IMG/VR virus record: IMGVR_UViG_3300046533_000306
Coordinates: 1-28,084 of that record
DNA length: 28,084 nucleotides
Origin: a virus
Reading direction: 5' to 3' (one strand)
The notes under the pieces are model-generated. The model worked only from the letters and a program-made list of their open reading frames with translations. It ran no database searches and was not told the origin of the DNA. How positions within the stretch are numbered: position 1 is the first letter of the stretch; every line of letters begins with the position of its first letter. Below, in pieces: positions 2,245 to 27,894 of this stretch. The position numbers were made by a program, and so were the translations under genes.

Positions 2245-4149
2245 GTGACCCGCGCCTATTCGCTGCTCACCCTCAAAGCCGTTGACGTTGACGCCGAGTC
2301 GGTGACGATCACTGGCATCGCCTCGACGCCGGAACCCGATCGCATGGGCGACGTCGTCGAGCCGCTCGGGATCACCTTCAAAAATCCGCTCCCGTTGCTG
2401 CTCTACCACGACACCAAGCAGCCAGTGGGGACCGTCACGTTCGCGCCGCCGACCGCGGAAGGCCTCCCTTTTACGGGCACCCTGCCGATCATCCGCGCGC
2501 CGGGCGCCCTGCGGACCCGCATTGAGGAGGCCTTGCAGTCGATGCAGGCCGGACTCTTGGCCGGTGTCTCCATTGGGTTTCGCTCGCTCGAGGACGCGTT
2601 CAACAAAGCCACCGGCGGGATCCGGTTTCTGAAAACCGAGATCCTGGAACTCTCGCTCGTCACGATTCCGGCGAACCCGGGCGCGACGATCCACACCGTG
2701 AAAGCGCTCGACCTGGCCGCGACTGGCCGTCATCCGTCCCGCGACAGGGACCCACTGCCGATCGTGCGCGTCGATAAGGGCGCGCGTCCCATGGAACATA
2801 AAACTACCCACGAACAGATCACCGGCTTCGAGAACACCCGTGCCGCCAAGCACGCGCGGATGACGGCCATCATGACGGCGTCGGCCGACGCCGGCACGAC
2901 GCTCGACCAGGCCGAGACCGACGAATACGACGGGCTCGCGAGCGAGCTCAAGGCGATTGACGCGCATCTGGTCCGGCTGCGCGCCCTCGAGGCGACGCTG
3001 GTCACGCGGGCGACGGCGGTGTCGCCGACGACCACGGCGGCCGCGGGGAGTGACCTCCGCAGCAGCAGCGTCCCGATCATCCAGGTTCGATCCCAGCTCC
3101 CCAAGGGCACCGGCTTTGTCCGCTTCGTCCAGGGGCTCGCGGCCTGCAAGGGCAACTTGATGCAGGCGGAACAGTACGCCAAGCAGTGGGACGACTCGAC
3201 GCCAGAAGTCGGCCTCGTGTTCAAGGCGGCGGTGGCCGCCGGCACCACGACGGATGCGACCTGGGCGGGCCCCCTGGCGCCGCTGATGCCGCTCTCGAAT
3301 GAGTTTCTCGCGCTCCTGCGGCCGGCGACCATCCTGGGCAAAGTGCCTGGGTTCAGGCAAGTGCCCTTCAACGTGACGATCGCCAGCCAGACCGGCGGCG
3401 GCACGTATCAATGGGTGGGGCAAGGGGCGCCGAAGCCCGTCGGGAAGCTGCAGTTCGGATCGGTCTCGCTGACGATCACGAAATGCGCCGGGATCATCGT
3501 GATCACGCTCGAGCTCGCGCGCACGTCGACGCCGTCAGCGGAAGCGGTCATCCGGCAAGACATGATCAACGGGATCGCCGCGTTCCTCGACGTCGAATTC
3601 ACCGATCCGAGTAAGGCCCCCGTGGCTGGCGTCTCGCCGGGCTCGGTGACGAACGGCGTCACGCCGATTACCACCGCAGGGCCGACGCCGGCCAACGCGC
3701 GGACCGACATTCAGGCCCTTGCGGCGGCGATGTCGGCCGCCGGGATTCCGATCGGCGGCGCCGTGCTCCTGATGTCGACGACGAATGCGCTGGCGCTCTC
3801 GAACGCGCTCAACGCCCTCGGGCAACCGCTGTTTCCCTCGCTGAGTCTCAACGGCGGGACCGTCATGGGCGGCATCACGGTCATTCCGAGTCAGGCGATG
3901 GGCACGACCGTCGCGCTCGTGCAGCCGGACGCCATCCTCTACGCGGATGACGGCGGCGTGACGATCGACGTGTCCCAAGAGGCCTCGGTACAGATGGATT
4001 CGGCGCCCGACAATCCGGCCCTGGCGACGACGGTCATGACGTCGTTCTGGCAGAACAACCTGGTCGGCCTCCGCGCCGAGCGGTTTATCAACTGGAAGAA
4101 AGCGCGCGCCGGCTGCGTGCAATACACCGTCGCGACCTACACCGCGTAA
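2245..4149 (+). CDS. Fused HK97 prohead protease and major capsid protein
   Basis: This 634-residue polypeptide joins two normally separate proteins. Residues 1-155 are an S78-type prohead protease, with the likely catalytic His55 in LLYHDTKQPVG, Ser109 in GVSIGF, and the family signature ELSLVTIPANP at 135-145. Residues 183-265 are polar and helical, like the scaffolding delta domain. The rest is an HK97-fold major capsid protein, ending with conserved text such as NNLVGLRAERFINWKKA. The start is GTG at 2245 with only a weak ribosome site. An internal ATG at 2791 (Met183) follows AAGGG by ten bases and could give a free capsid subunit of 452 residues. Autocleavage between delta and capsid domains is expected by analogy with HK97. 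Confidence 0.92.
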   Translation: MTRAYSLLTLKAVDVDAESVTITGIASTPEPDRMGDVVEPLGITFKNPLPLLLYHDTKQPVGTVTFAPPTAEGLPFTGTLPIIRAPGALRTRIEEALQSMQAGLLAGVSIGFRSLEDAFNKATGGIRFLKTEILELSLVTIPANPGATIHTVKALDLAATGRHPSRDRDPLPIVRVDKGARPMEHKTTHEQITGFENTRAAKHARMTAIMTASADAGTTLDQAETDEYDGLASELKAIDAHLVRLRALEATLVTRATAVSPTTTAAAGSDLRSSSVPIIQVRSQLPKGTGFVRFVQGLAACKGNLMQAEQYAKQWDDSTPEVGLVFKAAVAAGTTTDATWAGPLAPLMPLSNEFLALLRPATILGKVPGFRQVPFNVTIASQTGGGTYQWVGQGAPKPVGKLQFGSVSLTITKCAGIIVITLELARTSTPSAEAVIRQDMINGIAAFLDVEFTDPSKAPVAGVSPGSVTNGVTPITTAGPTPANARTDIQALAAAMSAAGIPIGGAVLLMSTTNALALSNALNALGQPLFPSLSLNGGTVMGGITVIPSQAMGTTVALVQPDAILYADDGGVTIDVSQEASVQMDSAPDNPALATTVMTSFWQNNLVGLRAERFINWKKARAGCVQYTVATYTA

Positions 4150-17922: not shown

Positions 17923-17936
17923 TTATGTCAGATAGG

Positions 17937-17965
17937 AATGTAACGCACCCACGCGTGGGATGCAA
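17937..17965 (-). promoter_or_regulatory. Putative repressor promoter (minus strand)
   Basis: Read on the minus strand, TTGCAT (17960-17965) is followed by exactly 17 bases and TACATT (17937-17942), a fair sigma70-type match. Transcription would begin near 17930, about seven bases before the repressor ATG at 17922. The whole spacer region is occupied by the palindrome at 17948-17959. Confidence 0.6.
17948..17959. promoter_or_regulatory. 12-bp palindrome CCCACGCGTGGG, operator candidate
   Basis: The sequence is a perfect palindrome lying between the -35 and -10 of the repressor promoter, where bound protein would block RNA polymerase. It shares the half-site CCCAC with the inverted repeat at 17167-17184. 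It could be the target of the repressor itself, the Cro-like protein or the RHH protein. Confidence 0.55.
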
Positions 17966-17978
17966 GCCGGGCCATAGA

Positions 17979-18008
17979 GGGGCACACCGGGGCGCATCGG
18001 GGCGCACT
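17979..18008. repeat. Three tandem 10-bp repeats in the switch region
   Basis: Three consecutive units, GGGGCACACC, GGGGCGCATC and GGGGCGCACT, have a period of 10 bp, close to one helical turn. They lie midway between the divergent repressor and Cro-like promoters. Such phased direct repeats suit cooperative binding along one face of DNA. Confidence 0.6.
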
Positions 18009-18088
18009 GGGCCTAGAGATATTAGATCGGCGACACGGCATGGCTCACACGGACATGACACGCACGGAGCGGCCTTCCAGACCGGCGC

Positions 18089-18116
18089 TTGACAAATCTC
18101 TTGAAAGGAATATTCT
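18089..18116 (+). promoter_or_regulatory. Putative early promoter for the Cro-like gene
   Basis: A perfect TTGACA (18089-18094) is followed by 16 bases and TATTCT (18111-18116). The predicted start near 18124 leaves a leader of about eight bases before the ATG at 18132, with no clear Shine-Dalgarno sequence. The -10 overlaps the palindrome GAATATTC (18108-18115), and CTTGA repeats at 18088 and 18100 lie 12 bases apart. Confidence 0.7.
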
Positions 18117-18131
18117 AGGCACGATTTTGTC

Positions 18132-18350
18132 ATGAAAAGCAACCGCATCTATCCGACGCTCAAGGCCTGGCGGCTCGGGGCACGCCTCAACCAGGCCGAG
18201 GCCGCGCGCATTCTGGGCGTGAGCCAGGGCTTCTACAGCAAGCTCGAACGCGGGAAAGGCTATCCGGACCGGCGCAACGCCAAAGCCATCAGCGAGAAGG
18301 CGGGCGTGCCGCTCGAGACGGTCTTAGGGCTGGAGGCGTATTCGAAATGA
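18132..18350 (+). CDS. Cro-like XRE-family regulator
   Basis: The 72-residue protein is almost entirely one helix-turn-helix domain: LNQAEAARILGVSQGFYSKLERGKG followed by a helix AKAISEKAGVPLETVLGL. Small size, divergent position opposite the repressor gene and location at the head of the early operon match Cro. It is expected to bind operators in 17923-18131. Its stop overlaps the next start (ATGA). The ATG is preceded by a strong promoter but no good ribosome site, so the message may be nearly leaderless. Confidence 0.85.
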   Translation: MKSNRIYPTLKAWRLGARLNQAEAARILGVSQGFYSKLERGKGYPDRRNAKAISEKAGVPLETVLGLEAYSK

Positions 18351-18694
18351 GCGATTTTCCACAGCCTCGCAAAACACCAACTGCTGATATATTCCAAGAA
18401 GACATTGAGTCTGATAATGGATGCTATGTATCTCTGTCTTGTCTGGAATATTTAGTCGGGCTGGTTGGCGCCTGGGGGAAGTCGTGGCGCCGAGGGCGGG
18501 CGGGCGGCCTGGGGCGGTCCGCCGCGCGCCCCGTGGCCCCTATTATACCGCGCGCGTCTCGGGCTCCATCTCTGACGGCCGCGCGCCCGTCGGGGGCCCC
18601 TACGGACGGGATGCCGCGGCCCATGCTCACGCGGCAAGAATATTCTCGCCTTCTTTCCTTTCCTGACACGACCGCCGGGAGACGGGGGCGGTGA
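18347..18694 (+). CDS. Early protein of unknown function
   Basis: The 115-residue frame starts at an ATGA overlap with the Cro-like gene and ends at a GTGA overlap with the next, which supports it being translated. The first 40 residues come from unusually AT-rich DNA (18355-18460) and read like a normal protein (QPRKTPTADIFQEDIES). The rest is Arg/Ala/Pro/Gly-rich and disordered-looking. No family was recognised. The gene region also contains three GAATATT-type motifs that could be regulatory, so a purely non-coding role is possible. Confidence 0.55.
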   Translation: MSDFPQPRKTPTADIFQEDIESDNGCYVSLSCLEYLVGLVGAWGKSWRRGRAGGLGRSAARPVAPIIPRASRAPSLTAARPSGAPTDGMPRPMLTRQEYSRLLSFPDTTAGRRGR

Positions 18695-18966: not shown

Positions 18967-19106
18967 CGCTGACCTGGTGGCGGACGTGGCTCGGCCGCTG
19001 GCGTGCGTGGCGGACGGCGCGGTTTCAGCGGGACGTGATCAGCGATCTCCAGGTCTCGCAGGAATGGCAACGCCGGTTCTCGCGTCGAGGGGGCGGCCTC
19101 CGATGA
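18963..19106 (+). CDS. Very small basic, Trp-rich early protein
   Basis: The 47-residue frame lies between two ATGA overlaps (18963 and 19103). It begins MTLTWWRTWLGRWRAWRTAR and continues with a helix containing DVISDLQVSQEWQRRF. Trp and Arg dominate the first half. The exact fit between neighbouring stops and starts is the main evidence that it is a gene. Function is unknown; an amphipathic nucleic acid- or membrane-binding peptide is conceivable. Confidence 0.55.
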   Translation: MTLTWWRTWLGRWRAWRTARFQRDVISDLQVSQEWQRRFSRRGGGLR

Positions 19107-19339
19107 CGGCGCTGCGGACCTTGCGCACGCGGCGCGGCTGGACGCAAGAAGACTTGTGTCGACGCAGCCGGATTCCGCAGAACAGCATCTCCCGCCTGGA
19201 ACGCGACCGATCCGCCCGGCCCCGGTTCGAAACGGTGCGGGCGCTGGCGAAGGCGTTCGCCGTCGATCCGGTGTCGATTGCCTTCGGGCCGCCCCGGCGC
19301 AAGCCGCGCGTGGCGTCGGTCAACGGGGGGCCACGATGA
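19103..19339 (+). CDS. Second Cro-like XRE-family protein
   Basis: The 78-residue product from ATG 19103 carries a clear helix-turn-helix: LRTLRTRRGWTQEDLCRRSR followed by IPQNSISRLERDR and a helix VRALAKAFAVDPVSIAFG. It is the third XRE-type regulator in the window, 750 bases downstream of the Cro-like gene in the same operon. Longer upstream frames exist but the ATGA overlap with the preceding small gene fixes the start. It may control delayed early genes. Confidence 0.82.
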   Translation: MTALRTLRTRRGWTQEDLCRRSRIPQNSISRLERDRSARPRFETVRALAKAFAVDPVSIAFGPPRRKPRVASVNGGPR

Positions 19340-25462: not shown

Positions 25463-25560
25463 TGCCGCGCCGGTGGGTCGATCACTGGATTGCGGTGACG
25501 CCGTGGATCGGGCTCGCGGGCCTGTGCCTGCTCTCGGCCTGGTGTGGAGGCGGACGATGA
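25459..25560 (+). CDS. Very small single-pass membrane peptide
   Basis: The 33-residue frame starts at an ATGA overlap and ends at an ATGA overlap. It begins MMPRRWVDHWIAVTPW, followed by a hydrophobic stretch IGLAGLCLLSAW and CGGGR. Its exact fit between neighbouring genes supports translation. Together with the preceding gene it could form a pair of small membrane proteins, as seen in some holin and antiholin sets. That is an inference. Confidence 0.5.
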   Translation: MMPRRWVDHWIAVTPWIGLAGLCLLSAWCGGGR

Positions 25561-25694
25561 ACGATACCGATCAGCAACGGTGGCGGACCATTCTCCTGCT
25601 CTTGACGCGGATCGCGGACGCGCTCGAGAAACTCGCCGAGGAGGCGCACGCGTTGCGCGTGCTCGAAGAGACGCAACACGGCGATTACCCATGA
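25557..25694 (+). CDS. Small helical protein of unknown function
   Basis: The 45-residue product from ATG 25557 is one long helix (RWRTILLLLTRIADALEKLA, then EEAHALRVLEE). It has heptad-like Leu spacing and a short tail. Both ends overlap neighbours by ATGA. No family was recognised. Confidence 0.55.
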   Translation: MNDTDQQRWRTILLLLTRIADALEKLAEEAHALRVLEETQHGDYP

Positions 25695-26437
25695 AGATTC
25701 TCAACCGATGGACGGACGTGGTGTTGTGGGAAGGTGAAGCCGGCACGGTCGCCGAGGCGGTGTATGCCGCGCTGAAGAGTCGCGCGAACCTCCGTGACGC
25801 GAACCTCGGTGACGCGAACCTCGGTGGCGCGGACCTCCGTGGCGCGAACCTCGGTGGCGCGAACCTCGGTGACGCGAACCTCCGTGGCGCGGACCTCCGT
25901 GGCGCGAACCTCGGTGGCGCGGACCTCCGTGGCGCGAACCTCCGTGGCGCGGACCTCCGTGACGCGAACCTCGGTGGCGCGGACCTCCGTGGCGCGAACC
26001 TCCGTGGCGCGAACCTCCGTGACGCGAACCTCCGTGGCGCGGACCTCCGTGACGCGGACCTCCGTGGCGCGAACCTCCGTGGCGCGAACCTCCGTGGCGC
26101 GGACCTCGCACCCATCCGTGATGACCTATGGGCCGTGTTGAGCGCCTCGCCGGCGGAAGTGCCAGGCTTACTCACGGCCATCCGAGAAGGGCGCATTGAC
26201 GGATCTACCTACGAAGGCGAATGCGCGTGTCTGGTCGGTACACTCGAGCACGTCGCCGGCGCGCCGCACAACAGTTTACCCATACTCAAAGCGAACAGCT
26301 CACGACCCGCCGAGATGTTCTTTCTCTCGATCAACCGCGGGGACACGCCAGACACCAATCAGTTCTCGCAGTTGGCCGCGACGTGGATCGAGGACTGGCT
26401 GACACGAATGCGTGCAACGTTCGGAGCGGCGGCGTGA
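25691..26437 (+). CDS. Pentapeptide repeat protein
   Basis: The 248-residue product from ATG 25691 has a short N-terminal segment (ILNRWTDVVLWEGEAGTVAEA), then 21 consecutive pentapeptides of the form A(N/D)L(R/G)(G/D) (residues 32-136) plus a final ADLAP, and a C-terminal domain with IRDDLWAVLSASPAEVPGLL, ECACLVGTLEHVAGAP and FFLSINRGDTP. Pentapeptide repeats fold as a square right-handed beta helix; about 22 repeats make roughly five to six coils. Some such proteins mimic DNA and bind gyrase, but that is not shown here. The ATG overlaps the previous stop. Confidence 0.92.
   Translation: MKILNRWTDVVLWEGEAGTVAEAVYAALKSRANLRDANLGDANLGGADLRGANLGGANLGDANLRGADLRGANLGGADLRGANLRGADLRDANLGGADLRGANLRGANLRDANLRGADLRDADLRGANLRGANLRGADLAPIRDDLWAVLSASPAEVPGLLTAIREGRIDGSTYEGECACLVGTLEHVAGAPHNSLPILKANSSRPAEMFFLSINRGDTPDTNQFSQLAATWIEDWLTRMRATFGAAA
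25784..26098 (+). repeat. 21-unit 15-bp tandem repeat array
   Basis: Units follow the pattern GCG(A/G)ACCTC(C/G)GTG(G/A)C without interruption. Only three positions vary, each between two bases, and all three change the amino acid (Asn/Asp, Arg/Gly, Gly/Asp). All other bases, including synonymous positions, are constant in every unit. This points to recent expansion or homogenisation at the DNA level. Confidence 0.95.
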
Positions 26438-27576: not shown

Positions 27577-27894
27577 ATGCCGATCGCCCCGCCTCGGGCG
27601 TGCGCGACCTGTGGGCAGGCTGGGTGTGTGCAGCACCGCCGGCCTGCGTGGGGCCACGCGCAGCCCGTCGCGCGCGTGCGTGGGCGGCGGCTGCAACGGT
27701 TGCGTCACCAGTTGTTTCGAGGGCAACCGTTCTGTGCGCGCTGTCACGTTGAGGTCGCGACGATCCGCGATCATGTGGTGCCGTTGGCCGAAGGCGGCCT
27801 CGATGCCGAGTCCAATGTGCAAGCGTTATGTCAGCAGTGCAGTGATGCCAAAACCCAGGACGAATCGAAACGCGGCATACAGCGGAGTCGGTGA
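27577..27894 (+). CDS. HNH endonuclease
   Basis: The 105-residue protein has the HNH core. FCARC carries Cys53 and Cys56, IRDHVVPLAEGG carries the Asp65-His66 pair, Asn80 follows in ESNVQALC, and LCQQC carries Cys85 and Cys88 as the zinc pair. A second Cys/His group (CATCGQAGCVQH) lies at residues 9-20. HNH proteins encoded beside the terminase genes assist large terminase cutting in HK97-like cos phages. The stop is 88 bases before the terS start on the closed genome, the expected packaging-site region. Confidence 0.9.
   Translation: MPIAPPRACATCGQAGCVQHRRPAWGHAQPVARVRGRRLQRLRHQLFRGQPFCARCHVEVATIRDHVVPLAEGGLDAESNVQALCQQCSDAKTQDESKRGIQRSR

Follow-up and report, generated by a model that had tools for sequence, protein, structure and literature searches.

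The virus described here is probably a temperate tailed phage of Acidobacteria (Vicinamibacteria-like) that has no integrase of its own and would use the XerC/XerD recombinases of its host, with one regulator shared between its lysis-lysogeny switch and its attachment site; the probability assigned to this reading is about 0.72. The DNA analysed, called the window throughout, is the whole stretch of 28,084 nucleotides of IMG/VR virus record IMGVR_UViG_3300046533_000306, and its relevant features are collected in Table 1.

A dif-like site, the candidate attP, is found about 50 bases past the Cro-like gene of a divergent repressor/Cro-like pair. Its XerC arm and centre (GAGTCTGATAA-TGGATG) are identical at 17 of 17 positions to the dif of Vicinamibacteria-like Acidobacteria, and the site as a whole agrees at 22 of 28. 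The XerD arm is degenerate, with CTATGTATCTC in the window matching the dif arm TTATGTTAACT at 5 of 11 positions.

Table 1. Positions in the window of the switch, the candidate attachment site and the motifs around them.
Feature	Position	Strand	Remarks
Repressor-like HTH protein, 125 aa	17545-17922	-	Pfam HTH_31 2.3e-8, HTH_3 7e-5
GGAATGT	17935-17941	+	one-mismatch form of GGAATAT, over the -10 of the putative repressor promoter
Putative repressor promoter, TTGCAT-17-TACATT	17937-17965	-	7/12, chance level on its own; TTGCAT 17965-17960, TACATT 17942-17937
Perfect 12-bp palindrome CCCACGCGTGGG	17948-17959		in the spacer of the putative repressor promoter; not conserved in L003
3.3 x 10-bp tandem GGGGCGCACC	17979-18011	+	also a G-quadruplex motif; not conserved in L003
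Cro promoter, TTGACA-16-TATTCT	18089-18116	+	10/12 matches; TTGACA 18089-18094, TATTCT 18111-18116
GGAATAT	18107-18113	+	overlaps the Cro -10
Cro-like HTH protein, 72 aa	18132-18350	+	Pfam HTH_3 3.3e-11
Left inverted-repeat arm ATATTCCA	18389-18396	-	GGAATAT motif, minus strand
dif-like candidate attP core	18407-18434	+	similar to acidobacterial dif
XerC arm GAGTCTGATAA	18407-18417	+	part of the core
Centre TGGATG	18418-18423	+	part of the core
Degenerate XerD arm CTATGTATCTC	18424-18434	+	part of the core
Right inverted-repeat arm TGGAATAT	18444-18451	+	GGAATAT motif

The host sequence was identified from bacterial genomes, in which the pattern GTCTGATAATGGATNTTATG occurs 48 times against about 2 estimated by chance. 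The matches in Acidobacteria read GTCTGATAATGGATGTTATGTTAAC, and the GC-rich ones among them have the layout of a standard dif: the XerC arm, then TGGATG or TGGATA, then TTATGTTAACT or TTATGTAAACT. Exactly one copy of the 14-mer is present in 11 of the 12 dif-bearing genomes searched. Most of these genomes fall in the class of genome G001, where 46 of 193 genomes carry dif as GTCYGATAAT(R)NATNTTATGTTA with varying centres. Two genomes of this class are titled 'gp6', and group 6 corresponds to Vicinamibacteria. Full dif-like sites are also found in 95 IMG/VR stretches (L175-L269), mostly marine-looking with GC of 0.43-0.46 and the sequence GTCCGATAATGTATATTATGTTAACTTTCA, and one 61.9-kb contig carries two of them (L175, L202). 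None of the 95 lies in the GC range of the window's phage group.

The position of the site is retained among relatives of the window. Proteins related to the repressor were found in other viral contigs (none in named phages), with identities of 64% in L003, 49% in L123, 52% in L002 (best segment only) and 46% in L124/L125, which have the same sequence, and all of their genes are transcribed divergently from one for a Cro-like protein. L003 is the closest relative found, and the recognition-helix segment of its repressor, TQSKVSKVLNGE, is identical to that of the window. An identical 15-mer, GTCTGATAATGGATG, is common to the window, L003 and L002 and is located about 60-160 bases past the Cro stop codon. 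L124 carries a dif variant, GAGTCCGATAATAGATG, just after its Cro gene, and natural dif sites in the class of G001 vary in the same way; L123 has a weaker dif match at the same place, its core being a poor one. In all relatives the XerD arm is degenerate, with the XerC arm and centre matching host dif. The 15-mer also follows the Cro gene in a second Cro lineage (L032, L035, L040, L054, L055). In members of this second lineage (L013, L032, L035, L040, L055) a hairpin-forming ACATTGAG/CTCAATGT-like repeat precedes the candidate attP, which is itself flanked by GTAAAC/GTTTAC.

Two other explanations of the 15-mer were considered and set aside. As a chance word it would be unremarkable in number, the 54 viral matches in total being close to the chance estimate, yet several of the GC-rich ones adjoin Cro-like genes. 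The reading frame at 18347-18694 (FQEDIESDNGC...) was rejected as a conserved gene behind the 15-mer: it has no family match, and a comparison of the window with L003 around the core gave equal conservation at the three codon positions, which indicates non-coding DNA.

Searches for tyrosine and serine recombinases (PF00589, PF00239) found none in the window and none in 11 other records bearing the candidate attP (up to 54 kb). Since the window is classed as a virus record and has no exact end repeat that could be found, an integrase could lie outside it. Its right end holds an HNH gene (27577-27894) and its left end (1-452) the first part of the terminase cluster. Joined together, the ends would give the usual HNH-TerS-TerL order, so little of the genome may be missing from the record.

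What integration at dif without an integrase might look like can be seen in G009, a metagenome-assembled genome of Acidobacteria. Its two dif copies point the same way at a distance of 35.8 kb; the right-hand copy is a full dif, and the left-hand copy is degenerate in its right half. The DNA they enclose encodes a terminase, portal, major head and decoration proteins, an endolysin and a ParB-like protein, and gave no match to PF00589. In this arrangement the element is what one would expect of a tailed prophage that had entered dif by the XerCD route. It is unrelated to the window phage, and sampling of the class to which G009 belongs yielded no second dif-flanked prophage. Among the genomes of the G001 class, double dif copies within one contig were absent, the repressor of the window group was present in 0 of 193 genomes, and at the genome dif loci read there was no Cro-like gene beside dif.

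The lack of an integrated copy of the window phage group in those 193 genomes would also be expected if the dif-like site served to resolve dimers, as cer/psi do, of a prophage kept as a plasmid. Host XerCD also use dif-like sites on plasmids, and some plasmid prophages carry Xer-type recombinases (PMC8026635). Such a role is unlikely here, given that the attachment sites of TLC-phi and of the gonococcal island likewise join a dif-like XerC arm and centre to a divergent XerD arm (reviewed in PMC5357621), that the window proteins scanned gave no sign of a partition gene, and that the G009 element provides an example of a tailed prophage at dif. Integration at the host dif is the reading preferred for the site.

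The switch beside the site is in itself of an ordinary type, a divergent pair of HTH genes for a repressor and a Cro-like protein of the lysis-lysogeny kind, separated by 209 bp. The profile of the Cro-like protein also matches 434 repressor chains. In the 125-aa repressor the Pfam search returned HTH families only, with no C-terminal S24 autocleavage domain. A second HTH protein (HTH_31 1.9e-14) is encoded downstream of the Cro-like gene at 18977-19339. Both regulators had been proposed in a preliminary description of this DNA, as had a consensus TTGACA promoter for the Cro-like gene, and both proposals hold: TTGAC(A/T) is found 36-45 nt upstream of the ATG in 5 of 5 relatives (L003, L123, L002, L124/L125). 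This position leaves room for only a few leader bases, so that the Cro mRNA probably has little or no leader. The repressor promoter that had been described with exactly 17-base spacing is present as hexamers and spacing, but its 7 matches of 12 occur about as often as by chance (3 matches of this grade in the window, 3.3 expected), and a consensus promoter scan did not list it. L003 has TTGCGC-17-TATATT at the equivalent place.

The same description had drawn attention to a palindrome and helically phased repeats in the gap, and to the absence of the three dyad operators of lambda. The last point is correct. A search for inverted repeats between the genes (arms of at least 6 bases, gap of at most 12) gave just one, and three similar dyads are absent. 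The palindrome and the tandem are present as letters, but their abundance is at or near chance and L003 has neither. The window holds 16 perfect 12-bp palindromes where 16.9 are expected, near copies of CCCACGCGTGGG are no commoner than chance, and the probability of at least one perfect 12-bp palindrome in a 209-bp gap is about 0.05. Tandem Repeats Finder (TRF) gave the tandem a period of 10, 3.3 copies, 82% match and a score of 45; with any period of 6-15 allowed its probability is about 0.03. L003 shares no 8-mer of either element with the window. Elsewhere in the window a 15-bp tandem array of 21.7 copies (25782-26107, within 25544-26437) encodes a pentapeptide-repeat-like protein (GANLRGADLRDANL...).

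Could these elements nevertheless be the real operators of a new type of switch? Both fall in the same short gap, each with a probability of only about 0.03-0.05, the palindrome lies between the presumed -35 and -10, and in L123 the spacer of the Cro promoter contains another 12-bp palindrome of different sequence. Against this, L003 has an identical recognition-helix segment in its repressor yet shares neither element, and the counts of the palindrome and its near copies are those of chance. Palindrome and tandem were therefore rejected as conserved operators, the proposal that they work as such is not borne out, and the suggestion of a new switch design is quite improbable. The tandem might alternatively act as nucleic acid structure and not as a protein site, its G-runs (GGGG-6-GGGG-6-GGGG-6-GGG, spaced 10 bp) forming a G-quadruplex that tunes transcription. 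The runs fit the canonical motif, but two such motifs in 28 kb compare with 1.65 expected and L003 is without it, so that a function of this kind is very improbable. The other of the two is at 18494-18514, just downstream of the candidate attP.

A better candidate for an operator is a short motif that recurs at the switch and around the candidate attP. The 28 kb of the window contain just three copies of GGAATAT, all of them in the Cro promoter or the attP arms; in L003 both copies are so placed, one in the repressor promoter and one in the right attP arm. Where the window has GGAATGT over the repressor -10, L003 has TTCCAATTAGGAATATA. The two 8-bp arms in the window, ATATTCCA and TGGAATAT, are symmetric about the centre of the core (midpoint 18420.0 as compared with 18420.5), and L003 has the arms TATTCCAA/TTGGAATA at the same place. 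When a two-segment template was slid over the rest of the sequence, an equal score was reached at 2 of 1059 places in the window and 0 of 310 in L003. L123, L124 and L002 behave alike with another word: when about 3,300-3,700 gapped words of one shape were ranked by their clustering at switch and attP, CTGANTC came first in each. The division into a GGAATAT group and a CTGANTC group follows a division of the regulators into two recognition-helix types.

These motifs were first chosen by eye. Part of the recurrence of GGAATAT could reflect promoter sequence, because the motif overlaps -10 hexamers. In a test based on exact match lengths the repeat across the attP core was significant (combined p 0.0004, the loci not being independent), and the sharing between switch and attP was not (combined p 0.13), so a regulator common to the two is likely but unproven.

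The mechanism proposed starts from the attP as a mimic of the host dif. XerC and XerD of the host would join the 28-mer of the window to the host site GAGTCTGATAATGGATGTTATGTTAACT, taking circular phage DNA into dif and leaving one intact dif behind. One protein of the switch would probably bind the shared motif, GGAATAT in the window, at the switch promoters and at both attP arms, and in doing so could tie the choice between lytic and lysogenic growth to integration or excision. A broader version is offered tentatively and falls well short of even odds: a family of tailed phages would have dropped the integrase and let the repressor or Cro itself control host XerCD at promoters and attP arms, one protein deciding both lysis or lysogeny and integration or excision, and operator and attP core would follow changes in the regulator and the host dif.

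If these proposals are true, dif-mimic sites would be a direct way to recognise temperate phages that seem lytic for want of an integrase. They would also point to the hosts, whose dif can be read from the attP core. A regulator that serves the attachment site as well would be a compact coupling of decision to recombination.

The systems to which this one can be compared resemble it in different parts. Lambda-type cI/cro switches also have a divergent HTH repressor and a small Cro-like protein with opposed promoters; unlike them, the switch in the window has no S24 autocleavage domain that was found and no three-dyad operator, and its candidate attP adjoins cro instead of int/xis. The closest likeness of the site itself is to the IMEX TLC-phi and gonococcal genomic island, in which attP agrees with host dif in its XerC arm and central region and diverges in its XerD arm, no integrase is encoded, and one intact dif is expected after integration. 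Those elements are a satellite of filamentous phage and a genomic island, whereas the window would represent a tailed phage whose attP adjoins a cI/cro-type switch, and integration at dif is known for them and predicted from sequence here.

No tailed phage that enters dif without an integrase of its own was described in the literature searched, although papers outside the searched set may exist. Filamentous phages and microviruses (PMC3091885) are reported to use host XerCD at dif, and the same is suspected of some tailless phages (PMC11630473); these are small ssDNA or tailless phages, and a repressor/Cro operator motif around attP was not reported for them in the literature examined. A phage protein that acts at recombination sites also has precedents. 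Cox of phage P2 is a repressor that doubles as directionality factor and acts at control sites as well. The satellite phage TLC-phi encodes its own Xer activation factor, XafT (cited in PMC9765430). With Cox and XafT the likeness lies in the idea of such a protein, and on the side of the window in the shared DNA motif alone. Hijacking of Xer is already known; the notable part of the present system is a dif-mimic attP with operator-like arms beside the switch.
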